Assembly: GCF_010728325.1 (NCBI RefSeq)
Contig: NZ_AP022570.1
Location: 2,232,001-2,296,000, forward strand
Origin: Mycolicibacterium poriferae
GTDB lineage: Bacteria; Actinomycetota; Actinomycetes; Mycobacteriales; Mycobacteriaceae
Direction of reading: 5' to 3'
Length of the DNA: 64,000 nt
The notes under the pieces are model-generated. The model was not told the origin of the DNA and ran no database searches. It worked only from the letters and a program-made list of their open reading frames with translations. Position numbers and translations under genes: made by a program. Shown here one piece after another: positions 54,439-62,584 of the stretch; the first letter of the stretch is position 1; the number at the start of each line of letters is the position of its first letter.

Positions 54439-56015
54439 CTCGGGAACCCCTCTGCGATCGCAGGACTCGGGTCTCGCTGATCGATCGAGGTCAGCGTGTG
54501 AGTCACCGCCGGATCGATCACGTCGAGCGCAGGTTTGGGATAGACCCCGAGCACCAGCAGCAACGCGATCAGCGGTGCGACCACGACGATCTCGCGAGGC
54601 ACCAGATCGGGAAGTCTCGACTCACCGTCGGCGATGTCACGGGGCAGGGGACCCGTCATCATCCGCTGGTACATCCACAGGATGTAGATCGCCGAGAGCA
54701 CCAGAGCGGTGGCGGCGAGCACACCGAACACCGGATAGCGGGTGAACGTGCCGATGAGCACCAGGAACTCACTGATGAACGGCGCCAACCCGGGCAGCGA
54801 CAGCGTCGCCAACCCGGCCACCAGGAACGTGCCCGCCAGGACGGGCGCGACCTTCTGCACGCCCCCGTACGCGCTGATGAGACGCGAACCGCGGCGCGAC
54901 ACCAGGAACCCGGCGATCAGGAACAGAGCGGCGGTCGAGATTCCGTGGTTGACCATGTACAGCGTCGAGCCAGTCTGCCCCTGGCTGGTCATCACGAAGA
55001 TGCCCAGGATGATGAACCCGAAGTGTGAGATCGAGGTGTACGCGATCAGGCGCATGACGTCGGTCTGGCCGATCGCGACCACGGCGCCGTAGATGATCCC
55101 GATCACCGACAGCGTGATGATCACCGGTGCGAACAGTGCAGCCGAGTCGCCGAACAACGGCAGACAGTAACGGATCATGCCGAACGTGCCGACCTTGTCC
55201 ATGATCGCCATCATCAGCACCGCGCTGGCCGGGGTGGCCTGTACCGCGGAGTCGGGCAACCACCGGTGCAACGGCCACAGCGGCGCTTTGATCGCGAACG
55301 CGAACATGAAGCCACCGAACAGCAGATGCATGACCATCGGGTTCAGGGCGAACTCGCCGTCAGCGATCGCGGCGACGATCGCGCGGAAATCGAACGTGCC
55401 GCCCTCGAACGCGTCGCTACCCGCGGTCGCAACGTAGAGGCCGACCACGGCGGCGAGCATGATCAGCCCACCGAACAGGTTGTACAGCAGGAACTTCACC
55501 GCCGCGGCGCTGCGTTGCGCACCCCCGAACCCGCCGATCAGGAAGTACATCGGGATCAGCATCGCCTCGAAGAACACGTAGAACAGCAGAATGTCCAACG
55601 CCACCAACGAGATCAGGACCATGCCTTCCACGGCCAGCATCAGCGCGAAGTACACGTGCACCGACCGGCCGCCCCAACTGATGTAGTCGCGGGTGTCGTT
55701 CCATCCGGCGACGATCAGGATCGGCATCAGCACGGCGGTGAGCACCACCAGGGCCAACGCGATCCCGTCGACACCGAGTTGGTAACCGGTGCCGAACGAC
55801 GGTATCCAGCGGTGGGATTCGACGAACTGGAACTGCGCCCCGGCCGGGTCGAAGCCGACGGCCACGACCACCGTGACGGCCAGCACCGTCAGCGAGACCC
55901 CCAACGCCACCCACTTGACCAGCTGCCGCTGCGCGGCGGGCAGCACCATCACCGCGACCGCGCCGATCATCGGGACGGCCCACAACACCGTCAGCCAGGG
56001 AATCGAGCTCACCAC
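54435..56015 (-). CDS. nuoM: NADH-quinone oxidoreductase subunit M
   Basis: 526-residue complex I proton-pumping subunit. Characteristic are [41 protein letters not shown] with the essential Glu in [53 protein letters not shown] with the channel Lys, and [16 protein letters not shown]. Length and order L-M-N are standard. The start overlaps the end of nuoL by 7 bp and the stop overlaps nuoN. Confidence 0.95.
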
Positions 56016-57889
56016 AGGTTCACCGCCAGAATCGTCGCGACCACCAGCGTGGCGCCCACCAGCATCGACAACGCATACGATCGGGCGAAGCCGGTCTGCG
56101 TGTTCCGCAACCCTCGGGATATCCGCGACACCCCGCCCGCCAGGCCTCCGGCCACGCCGTCTACCACTTCGTCGTCGATCTCGACCAGTTCCTCGGTGAA
56201 GACCCGGCCCGGTCGCATCAGCACTTTCTCGTTAAACGCGTCGCCGTAGAGATCCTGGCGCGCGGCGGCGGTCAGCGCCGAACCGGCGGGCGGCTGCTCG
56301 GCGACCGCACGAGAGCCGTACATCCGGTAGGCGATCACGATGCCGACTGCGACCACTGACAACACGATCACGGTGACCACCCACACCGGCAGCACGTGGT
56401 GGACTTCATGAGCGCCCACCACCGGCTCCAACCAGTGCTCCAGCGTGCCCCCGATGGCGAGCGCCGCGCCCGCAGTCACCGACCCGACCGCCAGCAGGAT
56501 CATCGGCCAGGTCATCACCGACGGCGCCTCGTGCGGATGCGATGTCTCGGCCCAGCGTTTCTCGCCGAAGAACGTCATCAGCATCACCCGTGTCATGTAG
56601 AAGGCCGTGATGCCGGCGCCGAGGATGGTCACAGCGCCCAGCACGACCCCCTTGACGCCGCCGGCGCCCAGCGCGGCCTCGATGATGCCGTCTTTGGAGA
56701 AGAAGCCCGCCAGCGGCGGGATGCCGATGATCGCCAGGTAACCCAGTCCGAACGTCACGAACGTCACCGGAAGGGCGGTGCGCAGCCCGCCGTAGCGGCG
56801 CATGTTCACCTCGTCGTCCATCGCATGCATCACCGACCCGGCGCCGAGGAACAGACCCGCTTTGAAGAATCCGTGAGTCAACAGGTGCATGATCGCGACC
56901 GCGTAGCCGACCGGCCCGAGTCCGGCCGCCAGCACCATGTAGCCGATCTGGCTCATCGTCGATGCGGCCAGCGCCTTCTTGATGTCATCCTTCGCGCAGC
57001 CGATCACCGCACCGAACAGCAACGTCACCGCGCCGACGACCACCACCGCGGTCTGGGCGTGCGGCGCGAGGTCGAACACCGGGCCCGAGCGCACGATCAG
57101 GTAGACGCCGGCGGTGACCATCGTCGCGGCGTGGATGAGCGCCGACACCGGCGTGGGGCCTTCCATGGCGTCACCGAGCCACGACTGCAACGGCACCTGG
57201 GCGGACTTGCCGCAGGCGGCCAACAGCAGCATCAACCCGATCAGCGTCAGCATGGCCTCGCTCAACTGCGGCGCCGCGTCGAACACGCCGGTGAACGACA
57301 CCGACCCGACCGCGGCGAACATCAGCATCAACGCCACCGCCAACCCGATGTCACCGACCCGGTTGACGACGAACGCCTTCTTGGCCGCCGTCGCCGCCGA
57401 CGGCTTGTGCGACCAGAACCCGATCAGCAGATACGACGCCAGGCCCACGCCCTCCCAGCCCATGTACAGACCGAGGTAGTTGTCGGCGAGCACCAGCAGC
57501 AGCATCGCCGCGAGGAACAGGTTGAGATAACCGAAGAACTTCCTGCGCTCGGGATCCTCGGCCATGTAGCCGATGGAGTAGATGTGGATCAGCGACCCGA
57601 CCCCGGTGATCAGCAGCACGAAGCACATCGACAGCTGGTCGAGGTGCAGGCCGAAGTCCACCTGCAGCTCTCCGACGGGAACCCAGGAGAACAGCGTCTG
57701 CGTGATGCGGCGGTCCTCGGCGGGCCGGCTGACCATGTCGACGAACAACACTGCGGCGCAGACGAACGAGGCCAGCGAGGCGGCGGTACCCACCAGATGG
57801 CCCCACGGGTTGCTCCGCCGGCCGGACAGCAACAACATCATCGCCCCGCCGAGGGGGAGCGCGATCAGCAGCCACACGGGTACGGTCAT
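56009..57889 (-). CDS. nuoL: NADH-quinone oxidoreductase subunit L
   Basis: 626-residue distal proton-pumping subunit of complex I. Signature parts: [126 protein letters not shown] and MMRYGGL-like [15 protein letters not shown]-terminal lateral helix is present. It should be co-transcribed with nuoK upstream, but a repeat array and an IS110 element now separate them by about 1.76 kb, so expression of nuoLMN may depend on read-through or a new promoter. Confidence 0.95.
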
Positions 57890-57909
57890 CGGCGCCTCAG
57901 TGTTTTTTC

Positions 57910-58088
57910 TTCTTCGCGCAAGCGCTCGTCAGGTGCTCTCTCTTCTTCGCGCAAGCGCTCATCAGTGCCTTCTGTTCTTCGCGCAAGCGCTCATCAGGGT
58001 TGTCTCTTCTTCGCGCAAGCGGCTCATCAGTGCCTTCTGTTCTTCGCGCAAGCGCTCATCAGGGTTGTCTCTTCTTCGCGCAAGCGCT
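57910..58088. repeat. 32-33 bp tandem-repeat array between nuoL and nuoK (left part), split by IS110
   Basis: Six units with the core TTCTTCGCGCAAGCGCTC followed by RTCAG and an 8-10 bp variable spacer start at 57910, 57943, 57975, 58007, 58040 and 58072. Two spacer types alternate (GTGCCTTCTG and GGTTGTCTC). The sixth unit is cut after CAAGCGCT and continues at 59610 beyond the IS. A seventh unit begins at 59628 and contains the nuoK stop codon. Unit 4 has an extra G. On the nuo strand each unit reads ATGAGCGCTTGCGCGAAG. Confidence 0.93.
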
Positions 58089-58121
58089 CACTGGTGCACC
58101 ATTTGTGTGTCGGTGATCTTG

Positions 58122-58315
58122 GATGGGTTGCCGATGCACCCGAGGTGCCGTCGAGTTACCGCCACAAGCGCTTGACGCATCGATGTCCACGATGAGTTTC
58201 GCGGGACTCGACGGTTACCCGGGGTGTGCCGACCGTCGACAGGGCTGCGCGCCACCGAGCGCCGATCAGTGAGCGAAGCGGCAGCCACACCTCGGCACCG
58301 AAGTTTGGGTGCCTC
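58122..58315 (+). ncRNA. Predicted IS110 bridge RNA (target- and donor-binding loops)
   Basis: A 5' hairpin (58125-58141) is followed by two large stem-loops. Loop 1: CCGTCGAGT (58148-58156) pairs with ACTCGACGG (58206-58214), with an inner CCGC/GCGG stem. Inside lie CAAGCGCT (58165-58172), identical to the left target, and GATGAG (58191-58196), the reverse complement of the right target CTCATC. Loop 2: GGTGTG (58223-58228) pairs with CACACC (58286-58291). Inside lie ACAGGGCT (58239-58246), identical to the right end at 59601-59608, and CAGTGAG (58267-58273), the reverse complement of CTCACTG at the left end. A 3' hairpin GGCACC/GGTGCC is at 58294-58313. RNA ends are estimates. Confidence 0.85.
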
Positions 58316-58345
58316 CCCACTGGGTCTAGCAGCGAGGAGGCTGTG

Positions 58346-59599
58346 ATGGATTATGCCCCTACTGCCGTCTTGGCGGCAGAACCGGCCAACGGAGTGACCG
58401 CTGGCCTGGACTGGTCTCGTGACGATCAGGCGGTATCGGTAGTCGATTCTCGAGGCGCCGAAGTGTTGCGCGAGCTCACTGACCACAGCGCTAGGGGACT
58501 GCGCACACTGGTCGACACGCTGACCCGTGCCGGGGTCAGCGAAGTCGCTATCGAACGTCCCGACGGGCCCGTCGTCGACACATTGCTCGAGGCCGGGTTC
58601 ACCGTCGTGGTGATCAGTCCCAACCAGCTCAAGAACCTGCGGGGCCGCTACGGCTCGGCCGGCAACAAAGACGACCGCTTCGACGCCTTCGTCCTGGCTG
58701 ACACCTTGCGCACCGACCGCACCCGACTGCGGCCACTGGTCCCCGACAGCCCCGCCACCGTAGCGCTGCGCAGCACGTGCCGAGCCCGCAAAGAACTCAT
58801 CAGACACCGCGTCGCGGTAACCAACCAGCTGCGCGAACACCTCAACCGCGTGTTTCCCGGCGCCGTAGGACTGTTCGCCGACCTCGATTCCCCAATCAGC
58901 CTGACCTTCCTGGCCCGCTTCGACTGCCAAGACCGTGCCGACTGGTTGACCCCCGCACGAATGGCGAACTGGCTGGCCTCGGTGGGCTACACCGGCCGCA
59001 CCGACCCCGCCGTGCTGCACACCCGCCTCATCACTGCACCCCGCGGCGCCACCGGCCACGAAGGCGCCACGCACGCCCGGATCACCCACGCCCTGCTGGC
59101 CACCCTCACCACTCTGGTCAAACAAATCACCAGCCTGTCCGACCAGATCGCCGAACAACTCGCCGCGCACTGCGACGCACACATCTTCACCAGCCTGCCC
59201 AGATCCGGAAAGATCAGAGCCGCCAAACTTCTCGCTGAAATCGGCGACTGCCGAGGACGATTCCCCACCCCCGAGTCCCTGACCTGCCTGGCCGGCGTGG
59301 CCCCCTCGACCCGCCAATCGGGAACCATGCGCACCGTCGGATTCCGCTGGTCGTGCGACAAACACCTGCGCGACGCCGTCACCGACTTCGCCGCCGACTC
59401 CCGCCGCGCTAACCCCTGGGCCGACAACCTCTACCGCCAAGCCCGATCCCGCGGACGCGACCACCAACATGCCGTACGCATCCTGGCCCGCGCCTGGCTC
59501 TACGTCATCTGGCACTGCTGGCAAGACAACACCGCCTACGACCCCCACCGCCACGGCGCACTCCAAGCCCATCTGCGAGCTCAACAACCCGCTGCTTGA
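58346..59599 (+). CDS. IS110-family transposase (bridge-RNA-guided recombinase)
   Basis: 417-residue transposase. The N-terminal RuvC-like DEDD domain has GLDWSRDDQAVSVVD (Asp near 22), VAIERPDGPVVDTL (Glu) and NKDDRFDAFVLADTLR (two Asp). A coiled-coil region follows (LIRHRVAVTNQLREHLNRVFPG). The C-terminal Tnp domain has the helix-hairpin-helix LPRSGKIRAAKLLAEIGD and the catalytic-serine region LTCLAGVAPSTRQSG. All expected features are intact, so the element may be active. The ATG follows GAGGAGG. Confidence 0.93.
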   Translation: MDYAPTAVLAAEPANGVTAGLDWSRDDQAVSVVDSRGAEVLRELTDHSARGLRTLVDTLTRAGVSEVAIERPDGPVVDTLLEAGFTVVVISPNQLKNLRGRYGSAGNKDDRFDAFVLADTLRTDRTRLRPLVPDSPATVALRSTCRARKELIRHRVAVTNQLREHLNRVFPGAVGLFADLDSPISLTFLARFDCQDRADWLTPARMANWLASVGYTGRTDPAVLHTRLITAPRGATGHEGATHARITHALLATLTTLVKQITSLSDQIAEQLAAHCDAHIFTSLPRSGKIRAAKLLAEIGDCRGRFPTPESLTCLAGVAPSTRQSGTMRTVGFRWSCDKHLRDAVTDFAADSRRANPWADNLYRQARSRGRDHQHAVRILARAWLYVIWHCWQDNTAYDPHRHGALQAHLRAQQPAA

Positions 59600-59646
59600 C
59601 ACAGGGCTACTCATCAGGTGCTCTCTCTTCTTCGCGCAAGCGCTCA

Positions 59647-59946
59647 TCAGTGCTTCAGCAGGTTCGCCGCGTCGACATTGGCAGAGCGCCGCGACCGGAA
59701 GATGGTCATGATGATCGCCAGCCCGATCACGACTTCACAGGCAGCGACGACCATCGTGAAGAAGGCGACCACCTGTCCGTCCAGATGGCCGTGCATCCGC
59801 GAGAACGTGACGAAGGCGAGGTTGGCGGCGTTGAGCATCAACTCGACACACATGAACACGACGATGGCATTGCGACGCAACAACACTCCCGCGGCGCCGA
59901 TGGTGAACAACAGCGCCGACAGATACAGGTAGTAGTCGGGACTCAT
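59647..59946 (-). CDS. nuoK: NADH-quinone oxidoreductase subunit K
   Basis: 99-residue, three-helix membrane subunit of complex I. Visible are [43 protein letters not shown] with the conserved Glu in the [11 protein letters not shown] segment, and a second Glu in [15 protein letters not shown]. Both Glu are central to proton translocation. Normal length, ending LLKH. The stop codon lies inside the seventh unit of the repeat array. The start overlaps the nuoJ stop. Confidence 0.95.
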
Positions 59947-60671
59947 CGATCACGTCCGCTCGAGTTGTCGTCCTCGCCCTCGCTGGGCACCCGCCGCACC
60001 TGCAGGATCGCGCTGACCGACAACAAGGATGCCGAGCCGTCGGGCAGACGGGCCGGAACGTCGACCGCGTTGTGGCGGGCGTAGACGCCCGGGTTGGGCA
60101 GCGTGGTCGGATAACCGCCAGGGGCGAAACGTTCGATCGCCAGCTCGCGCTGCGTTTTACGGCGCTCGGTGCGTTCACGGTGGGCCAGCAGCATCGCGCC
60201 GAGCGTCGCGGTGATCAGCAGCGCGCCGGTCAACTCGAACGCCCACAGGTACTGCGTGAAGATCAGTGCGGCCAGGCCCTCGACGTTGCCGTTCTGGTTC
60301 GCGGCGTCAAGGCCCACGAAGCCGGCGACTGCGACGTTGCCGATCCCGGCGATCAGCAGGACGCCGAAACCGATACCGATGCAGATCGCCGCGAGCCGTT
60401 GTCCACGAAGGGTTTCCACCAGCGACTCCGAGGAATCCACCCCGATCAGCATGAGCACGAACAGGAACAGCATCATGACCGCTCCGGTGTAGACGACCAC
60501 CTGAACCACCCCCAGAAACGGGGCATCCTGCGCAATGTAGATCACCGCGAGCGCGATCATCGTGGTGGCCAGCGAGATCGCCGAATACACCGCCTTGGGG
60601 GCCGCGACCACCCCGATCGCCCCCACCACGGCGACCAGGGCCAGCACCCAGAACAGTACGGTTTCACCCAT
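59943..60671 (-). CDS. nuoJ: NADH-quinone oxidoreductase subunit J
   Basis: 242-residue membrane subunit of complex I with five helices, starting [75 protein letters not shown], the most conserved NuoJ region. A hydrophilic C-terminal tail of about 75 residues ([16 protein letters not shown] onwards) is longer than in enterobacteria but normal for mycobacteria. The start overlaps the nuoI stop by 8 bp. Confidence 0.94.
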
Positions 60672-61311
60672 TGGTGCTCCTTACGTGCGCGACGCCATTG
60701 TTGTCCGTTACGTGTGCGACGCCATTGTTGTCCGTTACGTGCGCGGCGCCGTTGTTGTCGGTGACGTGTGGGGCGTCGTCGCTGTCCCGTCGGTGCGCGC
60801 TGCTCTGGCGGGTGATGTTGCCCAGGTAGTAATCCTCGTCGGTGCTGCCCGGGGCCATCGGGTGCGGCGGTTGGTGCATCCCCGGCTCGAGCGGCGCCAA
60901 CAACTTGTCCTTGCCGTAGATCAGGTCCGCACGGTTGTCATCGGCCATCTCGTAGTCGTTGGTCATCGTCAGCGCCCGGGTGGGACAGGCCTCGATGCAC
61001 AGGCCGCAGCCGATGCACCGCAAGTAGTTGATCTGGTACACGCGCCCGTAACGCTCGCCGGGGGAATACCGTTCGGCGTCGGTGTTGTCGGCGCCCTCGA
61101 CGTAGATGGCGTCTGCCGGACAGGCCCAGGCGCAGAGTTCGCAGCCGATACACTTCTCCAGGCCGTCGGCGTAGCGGTTGAGTTGGTGCCGTCCGTGATA
61201 GCGCCGGGCCACCCGCCCGGGCTTCTCCGGATACTCCTCGGTGATCGGCTTCTTGAACATCGACCCGAACGTGACGGCGAATCCTGCGAGCGCATCGAGG
61301 AATTTAGGCAT
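60664..61311 (-). CDS. nuoI: NADH-quinone oxidoreductase subunit I with repetitive C-terminal tail
   Basis: 215-residue peripheral subunit of complex I carrying clusters N6a and N6b. The two [4Fe-4S] motifs are [12 protein letters not shown] near 54 and [12 protein letters not shown] near 100, in the usual TYKF-like fold with [20 protein letters not shown]. The last 40 residues consist of a nine-residue repeat (AHVTDNNGV and variants, about four times) from a 27-bp tandem repeat, a tail not required by the fold. ATG 61311 is the standard start; its 5' end overlaps nuoH by 8 bp. Confidence 0.94.
60681..60788 (-). repeat. 27-bp tandem repeat x4 encoding the NuoI tail
   Basis: Units begin at 60681, 60708, 60735 and 60762 (plus-strand TTACGTGCGCGACGCCATTG and variants). 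The first two differ at one position and the last is most diverged. The period is nine codons and the nuoI frame stays open. Confidence 0.95.
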
Positions 61312-62584
61312 GTGATTGCTCCTTGGTCGTGTGCGCAGCCGGCAGGGGAGGCACCGGGAAGGCGCCGGCCTGCACATCGGCGGCCGGGGTTGCGGGCGCC
61401 GGGGGCGGACCCCCGATCCGCGGGTTTCTGCGGGCGTTGAGGAGCACCGCCATGACGGCCAGACCGGCGACCCCCACCAGCGCGGTCACCCAGTCCCGTA
61501 CGCCGGGGTCGACCAGCGTATGAATGACGGCGACGATCATGATCCAACCCAGCGCCACCGGAATGAGTAATTTCCAACCCAGGACCATGAATTGGTCGTA
61601 ACGCAGGCGGGGCAGCGTCGCTCGCAGCCACATGAAGATGAACAGGAACAGCCATACCTTTGCGGTGAACCACAACAGTGGCCACCACCCGGCGTTCGCC
61701 CCTTCCCAGATGCTCAGCGGCCAGGGTGCCCGCCACCCGCCGAGGAAGAGGGTGGTGGCCAGCGCGGATACCGTGGTCATGTTGACGTACTCGGCCAACA
61801 TGAACATCGCGAACTTCAGCGACGAGTACTCGGTGTGAAATCCGCCGACCAGCTCACCTTCGGCTTCGGGCAGATCGAAAGGTGCCCGGTTGGTCTCGCC
61901 GACCATCGAGGTCAGATAAACCACGAACGAGGGAAGCAGCAGGAAGGCGAACCAGGTGCGCTCCTGCGCCGCCACGATGCCAGAGGTGGACATCGTGCCC
62001 GAGTAGATGAACACGGTCGCGAAGGACAGCGCCATCGCGATCTCGTAGGAGACCACCTGCGCGGATGACCGCAGTCCGCCGAGCAGTGGATACACCGAGC
62101 CGGATGCCCAGCCTGCCAGCACGATTCCGTACACCCCGATGGACGTCACCGCCAGGATGTAGAGCACCGCGACCGGCAGGTCGGTCAACTGCAAGGCGGT
62201 GCGGTGACCGAATATCGACACCTCACCGCCCAACGGGATCACCGCGAACGCCATGAAAGCCGGGATCACCGAGATGACCGGCGCGGCAAGATAGATCCAC
62301 TTGTCCACCCCGGCGGGTACGAGTCCCTCCTTCAGGGCGAGCTTGATCCCGTCGGCCAGCGACTGCAGCAACCCGTGCGGACCGACCCGGTTGGGCCCGA
62401 ACCTCATCTGCATGCGGCCGAGAAGTTTGCGCTCGATCAAGATTGCCGACAACACCGTCAGCACCAGGAACGCGAACACGCCGAGCGCCTTGGCCAGGAT
62501 CAACCACCAGGGATCGTGACCGAACAGGGCCGGATCCGGATATGTCGCCGGGTCGGGATATGTCGTCGCGTTCGGATAGATCAT
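61304..62584 (-). CDS. nuoH: NADH-quinone oxidoreductase subunit H
   Basis: 426-residue membrane subunit at the quinone site of complex I. Characteristic are [46 protein letters not shown] and [49 protein letters not shown], with several conserved Glu/Asp/Arg. The N-terminus has a short repeat ([11 protein letters not shown]). A proline-rich cytoplasmic tail ([17 protein letters not shown]) follows the last helix, as in other mycobacteria. ATG 62584 overlaps the nuoG stop (ATGA); longer frames run into nuoG. Confidence 0.95.

Follow-up and report, generated by a model that had tools for sequence, protein, structure and literature searches.

How does a transposable element come to lie between two genes of an operon, and how could translation continue past it? 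This question is raised by an IS110-group element in the window, the 64,000-nucleotide stretch of Mycolicibacterium poriferae DNA analyzed here. We explain it by RNA-guided insertion at a translation start combined with an antisense reading frame by which ribosomes could cross the element, and we assign this explanation as a whole a probability of about 0.7.

The element, the operon and the target repeat

The element (58089..59611, plus strand) measures 1523 bp with one CT core, copies of which lie at both ends (58087-58088 and 59610-59611), and its junctions are common to four genomic copies. Its noncoding ends, 257 nt on the left and about 12 nt on the right, enclose the gene of a 417-aa IS110 recombinase with a RuvC-like and a Tnp domain (58346..59599, plus strand). 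The preliminary description, which was made from the letters of the DNA, had placed the protein in the IS110 family, and the matches to PF01548 (RuvC-like), PF02371 (Tnp), and NF033542 (IS110 RNA-guided transposase) agreed with this. The alignment with IS621 was weak (E 1.6e-5); in it, residues D110, D113 (both read by eye), and S325 (located by script) aligned with the catalytic D102, D105, and S241 of IS621, given a PDB chain numbered 2 higher, an offset that we infer. A plasmid search with the recombinase protein returned 865 records, two of them 60-80% identical.

The host operon runs on the minus strand, antisense to the element. A nuoK-like gene (59647..59946; PF00420) lies upstream and a nuoL-like gene (56009..57889; PF00361, PF00662) downstream of a tandem array of a 32-33-bp repeat, and the element is placed between the two genes, inside this array. 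A further tandem repeat (27/54 bp) was seen at 60668-60799 of the window, in the C-terminal part of a minus-strand frame (60664-61377) that was nuoI-like as judged by eye.

Read on the operon strand, each repeat unit runs from ATGAGCGCTTGCGCGAAGA onward, usually over 10-11 codons, to a stop overlapping the next start (TGATG or ATGA). In the window, the first unit forms the right part of the split array (59610..59649, minus strand), and its ATG (59647) overlaps the nuoK stop (59649-59647). The left part (57897..58088, minus strand) contains mini-cistrons of 10, 10, 21, and 21 codons with TGATG overlaps, followed by a short gap and the ATG of nuoL. The repeat occurs at 18 sites in the same genome (L123-L140, found with a 12-mer), between co-directional genes, and a 15-mer of it was found in 62 of 98 genus genomes, with no occurrence of the reversed pattern among the matches listed. 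Twenty-eight sites, 18 from this genome and 10 from other genomes, some of them units of one array, were inspected. The stop of the longest upstream frame fell at -4 or -1 in 26 of these, which is partly built in since ATGAGC contains TGA, and the chain of coupled starts reached a frame of at least 180 codons in 21, including two (L129 and L132) in which the long frame was the antisense strand of the element itself. Such a repeat reads as what would be a translated relay that hands ribosomes on between neighboring genes. A search of the literature text with four words of the repeat sequence gave no match, and the preliminary description had included neither the mini-cistron nature of the repeat nor the conserved full-length antisense frame treated below.

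All four element copies in the genome were located at one kind of site, flanked by CAAGCGCT to the left and CTCATC to the right, and no copy at an unrelated target was found. Beyond GCGCAAGCGCT before the element and CTCATC after it, the four had no flanking sequence in common, while three of them shared a longer part of the repeat on the left side. Two of the copies (L002 and L003) had 2-3 gaps and 0-1 substitutions relative to the window copy, which could reflect assembly error or decay. A left-junction pattern with three mismatches was unspecific, with hits in 315 of 396 genomes and many control matches, and was replaced by the exact pattern. The latter occurred at 12 places in 6 of 396 genus genomes (four in G000, two in G207, three in G278, and one each in G124, G063, and G304), with no control match among the matches listed. 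Two places were left out of the count, L180 (G063), which had no adjoining bridge RNA, and L181 (G304), which lay at a contig end. CAAGCG-CT-CATC was the insertion site of the four copies in this genome and of the six remaining copies, spread over three further genus genomes (G124, G207, and G278).

The antisense frame and its ends

The antisense strand of the element is open from end to end. A frame of 508 codons (58088..59614, minus strand) passes from the ATG of the target (59614-59612) to a TGA at the left end (58090-58088), or 519 codons if reading begins with the first repeat unit, at its ATG (59647). The TGA overlaps a GTG start donated by the element (58089..58091, minus strand; GTGA) that is in frame with the downstream cistron, and from this TGA/GTG overlap the chain of mini-cistrons leads toward nuoL. 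The donated GTG is also in frame with the sequence that follows the target ATG, because the AG of the core follows both.

The generality of this design was evaluated at 50 places with both ends scored, the window and 49 relatives, using the end motifs CTCA[CT]TG[GC] and A[CT]AGGGC[TA]NCT; three double fetches and the mis-parsed L067 were left out. TTGACA was present no more than 20 nt from the right core in 48 of the 50 places. The target contained a start codon in 44 of the 50 (ATG in 32, GTG in 12); in the window, it is the ATG of the repeat unit. In the window and in the start-site relatives, the antisense frame spanning the element has no start of its own. The length was 2 mod 3 in 36 of the 44 start-site places, and the frame was complete to the left-end TGA in 34, which had 19 different lengths, all 2 mod 3. 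The full frame was missing in the other 10. Interruptions were found in three of the four copies in the genome of the window and in L176 and L177, two of the six other copies at CAAGCG-CT-CATC. In L058, L074, L086, and L097 the left end reads CTCATTG, so that the donated start is ATG rather than GTG. A 44%-identical element with an inferred GT core was present in two copies (L022 and L182, both in G183), which lie at ATG starts and have an antisense end of TAGTG, a similar plan.

The sequences downstream of the donated start were also inspected. The frame from this start was at least 100 codons long in 23 of the 44 places and at most 30 codons in 13, some of the latter being mini-cistrons, as in the window. 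Since the other readable phase also reached at least 100 codons in 15 of the 44, frame length is by itself weak evidence for a host gene at these places. Of ten longer frames chosen downstream and read from the donated start (GTG or ATG), nine contained a Pfam domain. Words resembling ribosome-binding sites stood 5′ of the start in 18 of 42 places, compared with 3 of 42 and 6 of 42 in control windows.

We consider it probable that the antisense frame serves as a passage for ribosomes, a function deduced from frames and overlaps in the DNA. The pass-through reading explains the start-codon target, the kept antisense frame, and the end of that frame at a start overlap, and by this route the element may sit in the operon with little harm.

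A different explanation is that the frame is a real gene, encoding a Hed-like protein that borrows the start and ribosome site of the host, with coupling being secondary. The whole frames at 34 of the 44 start-site places would suit such a gene, as would IS900, which carries a frame of this kind, hed (PMC8141618), and a third-position identity 0.16-0.17 above expectation over recombinase codons 301-417. However, the fourfold third positions of the recombinase, which are the first positions of the antisense codons, were near saturation, with an identity of about 0.60 versus 0.51 from composition (a small excess, 27 sequences), and this identity was nearly flat across 55 to 80% protein identity. 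The antisense product itself therefore looks little constrained, as far as the aligned genes indicate. In addition, the antisense frame of the window had no Pfam match, and the stop of the frame lies precisely where the next start overlaps it. We accordingly regard the protein gene as unlikely.

Slightly less probable still is that codon bias in a high-GC gene leaves the strand opposite to it open in the same phase, the frame being a by-product without function. Open frames are frequent opposite a gene when the phase is that of its codons, and in 41 of the 50 places the left end preserves the phase between the frame and the recombinase codons. In-phase antisense stops were absent from 53 of 59 genes of the clade but also from 7 of 20 distant IS110 genes, and three of these seven (L022, L023, and L030) have an antisense frame ending in TAGTG. 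Codons whose complements are stops were rare in four host nuo genes as well, with CTA at 0 of 151 and TCA at 3 of 62 TCN codons. CTA occurred at 12 of 2312 in the clade and at 28 of 665 in the distant genes. TCA, on the other hand, made up 8 of 577 TCN codons in the clade and 27 of 235 in the 20 distant genes, a far stronger depletion than that of GCA, CCA, and ACA, which dropped only about twofold in the clade. Moreover, codon bias cannot act on the noncoding left end, yet its 240 nt were open in the antisense frame in 40 of the 44 start-site places, compared with 7 and 2 for the other antisense frames; at the six places with other targets, the three antisense frames were open in 3, 3, and 2. 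Finally, a complete frame was found in none of the six elements at non-start targets, compared with 34 of 44 at start sites (Fisher p = 5e-4, a value that is not to be taken as a probability since the places are related by descent, L071-L073 being three copies of one element).

The bridge RNA and its guides

The preliminary description had proposed that the left end encodes a bridge RNA whose loops match the target and the ends of the element. An Rfam search of the window gave no matches at gathering scores, and a consensus fold was therefore built from an anchored alignment of 29 left ends, L058 being left out. The predicted bridge RNA (58109..58299, plus strand) consists of a 5′ stem-loop followed by two stem-loops, the target loop and the donor loop, with the guides in internal loops, which is the arrangement that had been expected. 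Across the alignment, 95.4% of the cells were paired and 29 of 57 pairs had changes on both sides. None of 500 shuffles matched any of five fold measures, and slid versions paired at most 40.3%, statistics that are favored by the derivation of the structure from the same alignment that was scored. The published plan of bridge RNAs, as outlined in PMC11208160, agrees with this fold.

The four guide matches named in the preliminary description were all exact, ordered, and oriented as it had reported. The left target guide CAAGCGCT, which includes the core CT (58165-58172, plus strand), is identical to the left flank (58081-58088), and the right target guide GATGAG, which includes the core complement (58191-58196, plus strand), is the complement of CTCATC (59610-59615). 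It is followed by the handshake base T (58197, plus strand). In the donor loop, the left guide ACAGGGCT (58239-58246, plus strand) equals 59601-59608, and the right guide CAGTGAG (58267-58273, plus strand), followed by the handshake base C (58274, plus strand), is the complement of CTCACTG (58087-58093). A small deviation of the left donor guide near the core, also mentioned earlier, is real: position 7 would be a G-T wobble, the core C is matched, and the core T is unmatched. In IS621, pairing of the left donor guide reaches the partner of core position 8 and not that of position 9, according to the account of the pairing in PMC11208158.

When the 252-nt left end was shuffled 200000 times under a Markov model, the four words, in the order given, turned up singly in 0.15%, 13.5%, 0.25%, and 4.8%, and at least three of them occurred jointly in 0.0025%, with their order ignored; chance matches are thus very unlikely, as had been assumed. 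A six-base guide by itself has little meaning, and covariation in relatives is the stronger evidence.

For this purpose, 97 relatives were collected, 80 loci from genome contigs and 17 from a genome search. Together with the window and its three sister copies this gave 101 places, of which 55 were parsed; five double fetches, the mis-parsed L079 and L026, places below 57% identity, and places off the motif were dropped. Because the parser fixes the CT/AG core, covariation was tested at noncore positions only, with 20000 shuffles per test that ignore relatedness. The left target guide matched the flank at 4.45 of 8 positions versus 3.55 expected (n = 53), only a modest match in many relatives, and the right target guide at 4.63 of 5 versus 3.17 (n = 43); no shuffle of 20000 was as high in either test. 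The handshake base after the right target guide agreed with donor position 7 in a fraction of 0.953 versus 0.673 expected (0 of 20000 shuffles, n = 43), being complementary in 38 of 40 places when the copies in the genome of the window were set aside. For the base after the right donor guide and target position 7, the values were 0.961 versus 0.887 (25 of 20000 shuffles, n = 51) and 46 of 48, with compensating changes in L045 and L098. Handshake pairing has been described for IS621 (PMC11208158, in its account of the synaptic pairing).

The loops are hence not conserved independently of the flanks, and the covariation results stood when the window, its sister copies, and L014 were removed. At the six complete places in the other genus genomes (G124, where the place is L014, G207, and G278), the left target guide was CACAAGCG-CT, the right guide GATGAG, and the right flank CTCATC. 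The Pseudonocardiales element L053 is inserted in CGCGAGCGCT, a target word with a one-base change, and its guide has changed likewise.

It is hardly credible that the guide matches are coincidental or left over and that the repeat is used through its abundance or through homologous recombination between repeats; the repeat is indeed common (18 occurrences of the 12-mer in the genome, and the 15-mer in 62 of 98 genomes), but the flanks common to the four copies (GCGCAAGCGCT and CTCATC) about equal the part covered by the guides, the guides of relatives covary with unrelated flanks, and coincidence was rejected on this covariation and the left-end shuffles. We therefore hold RNA-guided insertion to be near certain in kind, going by guides, flanks, and fold, and have very high confidence in the RNA-guided part of the explanation, with expression of the RNA and recombination being what the alignments would predict.

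Proposed mechanism and relation to known systems

According to the proposed mechanism, a bridge RNA would be made from the left end of the element. Its target loop would pair with CAAGCG-CT-CATC, its donor loop would pair with the ends of the element once joined, and insertion at the CT core would be carried out by the recombinase. In a circular form, the TTGACA close to the right core could become part of a promoter spanning the joined ends (59580-59609 with 58089-58110). The target repeat would be a mini-cistron passing ribosomes between neighboring genes. After insertion, the open antisense strand would start at the ATG of the target and stop at the TGA overlapping the donated in-frame GTG, so that ribosomes coming from nuoK could traverse the element and then reinitiate toward nuoL.

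On a wider scale, we lean slightly toward the view that a branch of the IS110 family evolved near-neutral RNA-guided insertion into translated genes, with start codons or coupling repeats as targets, a stop-free antisense passage, and a donated start, and that hed of IS900 would be such a passage and not a protein gene. This offers a testable answer to the possible purpose of the host-dependent antisense frame of IS900, and it points to a joint action of RNA-guided site choice and reading-frame design in making a transposon tolerable to an operon. The relatives also provide a natural set of bridge RNAs at start-codon contexts, which is useful for the study of programmable recombinases.

In IS1111 elements, the bridge RNA lies in the right end, whereas the IS110 group carries it in a long left end. 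The RNA-guided part described here belongs to an already known kind (Durrant 2024). The element resembles IS621 and other IS110-group elements in its recombinase domains, two-loop RNA in the left end, four guides, CT core, and handshake bases, as these are set out in parts of PMC11208160 and PMC11208158. It differs from IS621 in its target and in a left donor guide that does not match the core T. The conserved full-length antisense frame is a further difference, as the sections of the two papers describing IS621 and IS110 elements contain none.

Among the matches listed in a literature search on IS110 elements in mycobacteria, IS900 and hed, and antisense frames, coupling in IS110 elements was not described in the titles and opening lines of the abstracts. 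The terms Mycobacterium, IS900, and hed are likewise all absent from the main text of the seekRNA paper (PMC11187229), as far as the portion consulted extends. The landing site has a parallel in IS elements that target REP sequences, which are dispersed extragenic repeats (PMC1525189, in its summary); both targets are dispersed repeats, but the repeat here reads as what would be a translated coupler between genes.

The closest precedent is IS900. Its hed is an antisense frame that spans the element, lacks a start of its own, and has a function given as unknown in the passage on it in PMC8141618, citing Doran et al. (1997). Both are IS110-family elements with such a frame, and the insertion motif of IS900, CATGNNNNNNTCTCCTT, is read as a translation start. 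Compared with IS900, known here by that description, the host ATG stands directly at the core in the present element, and the stop of the frame overlaps a donated start. As far as the literature search shows, what is added here is the end of the frame in a coupling overlap and the connection with targeting by a bridge RNA. MIRUs of mycobacteria insert at start codons and carry an internal frame with a -4 coupling to the gene (PMC12548453, citing Supply et al., 1997). The target repeat is MIRU-like in habit, with its position at gene junctions and its frame with stop/start overlaps, a likeness drawn from the MIRU paragraph of PMC12548453. MIRUs, as characterized there, are short repeats, whereas here a 1.5-kb RNA-guided element would couple genes through its antisense strand. 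In our reading, insertion is directed by RNA to translation starts and has a translational pass-through built in, which generalizes hed of IS900 and resembles the coupling by MIRUs.
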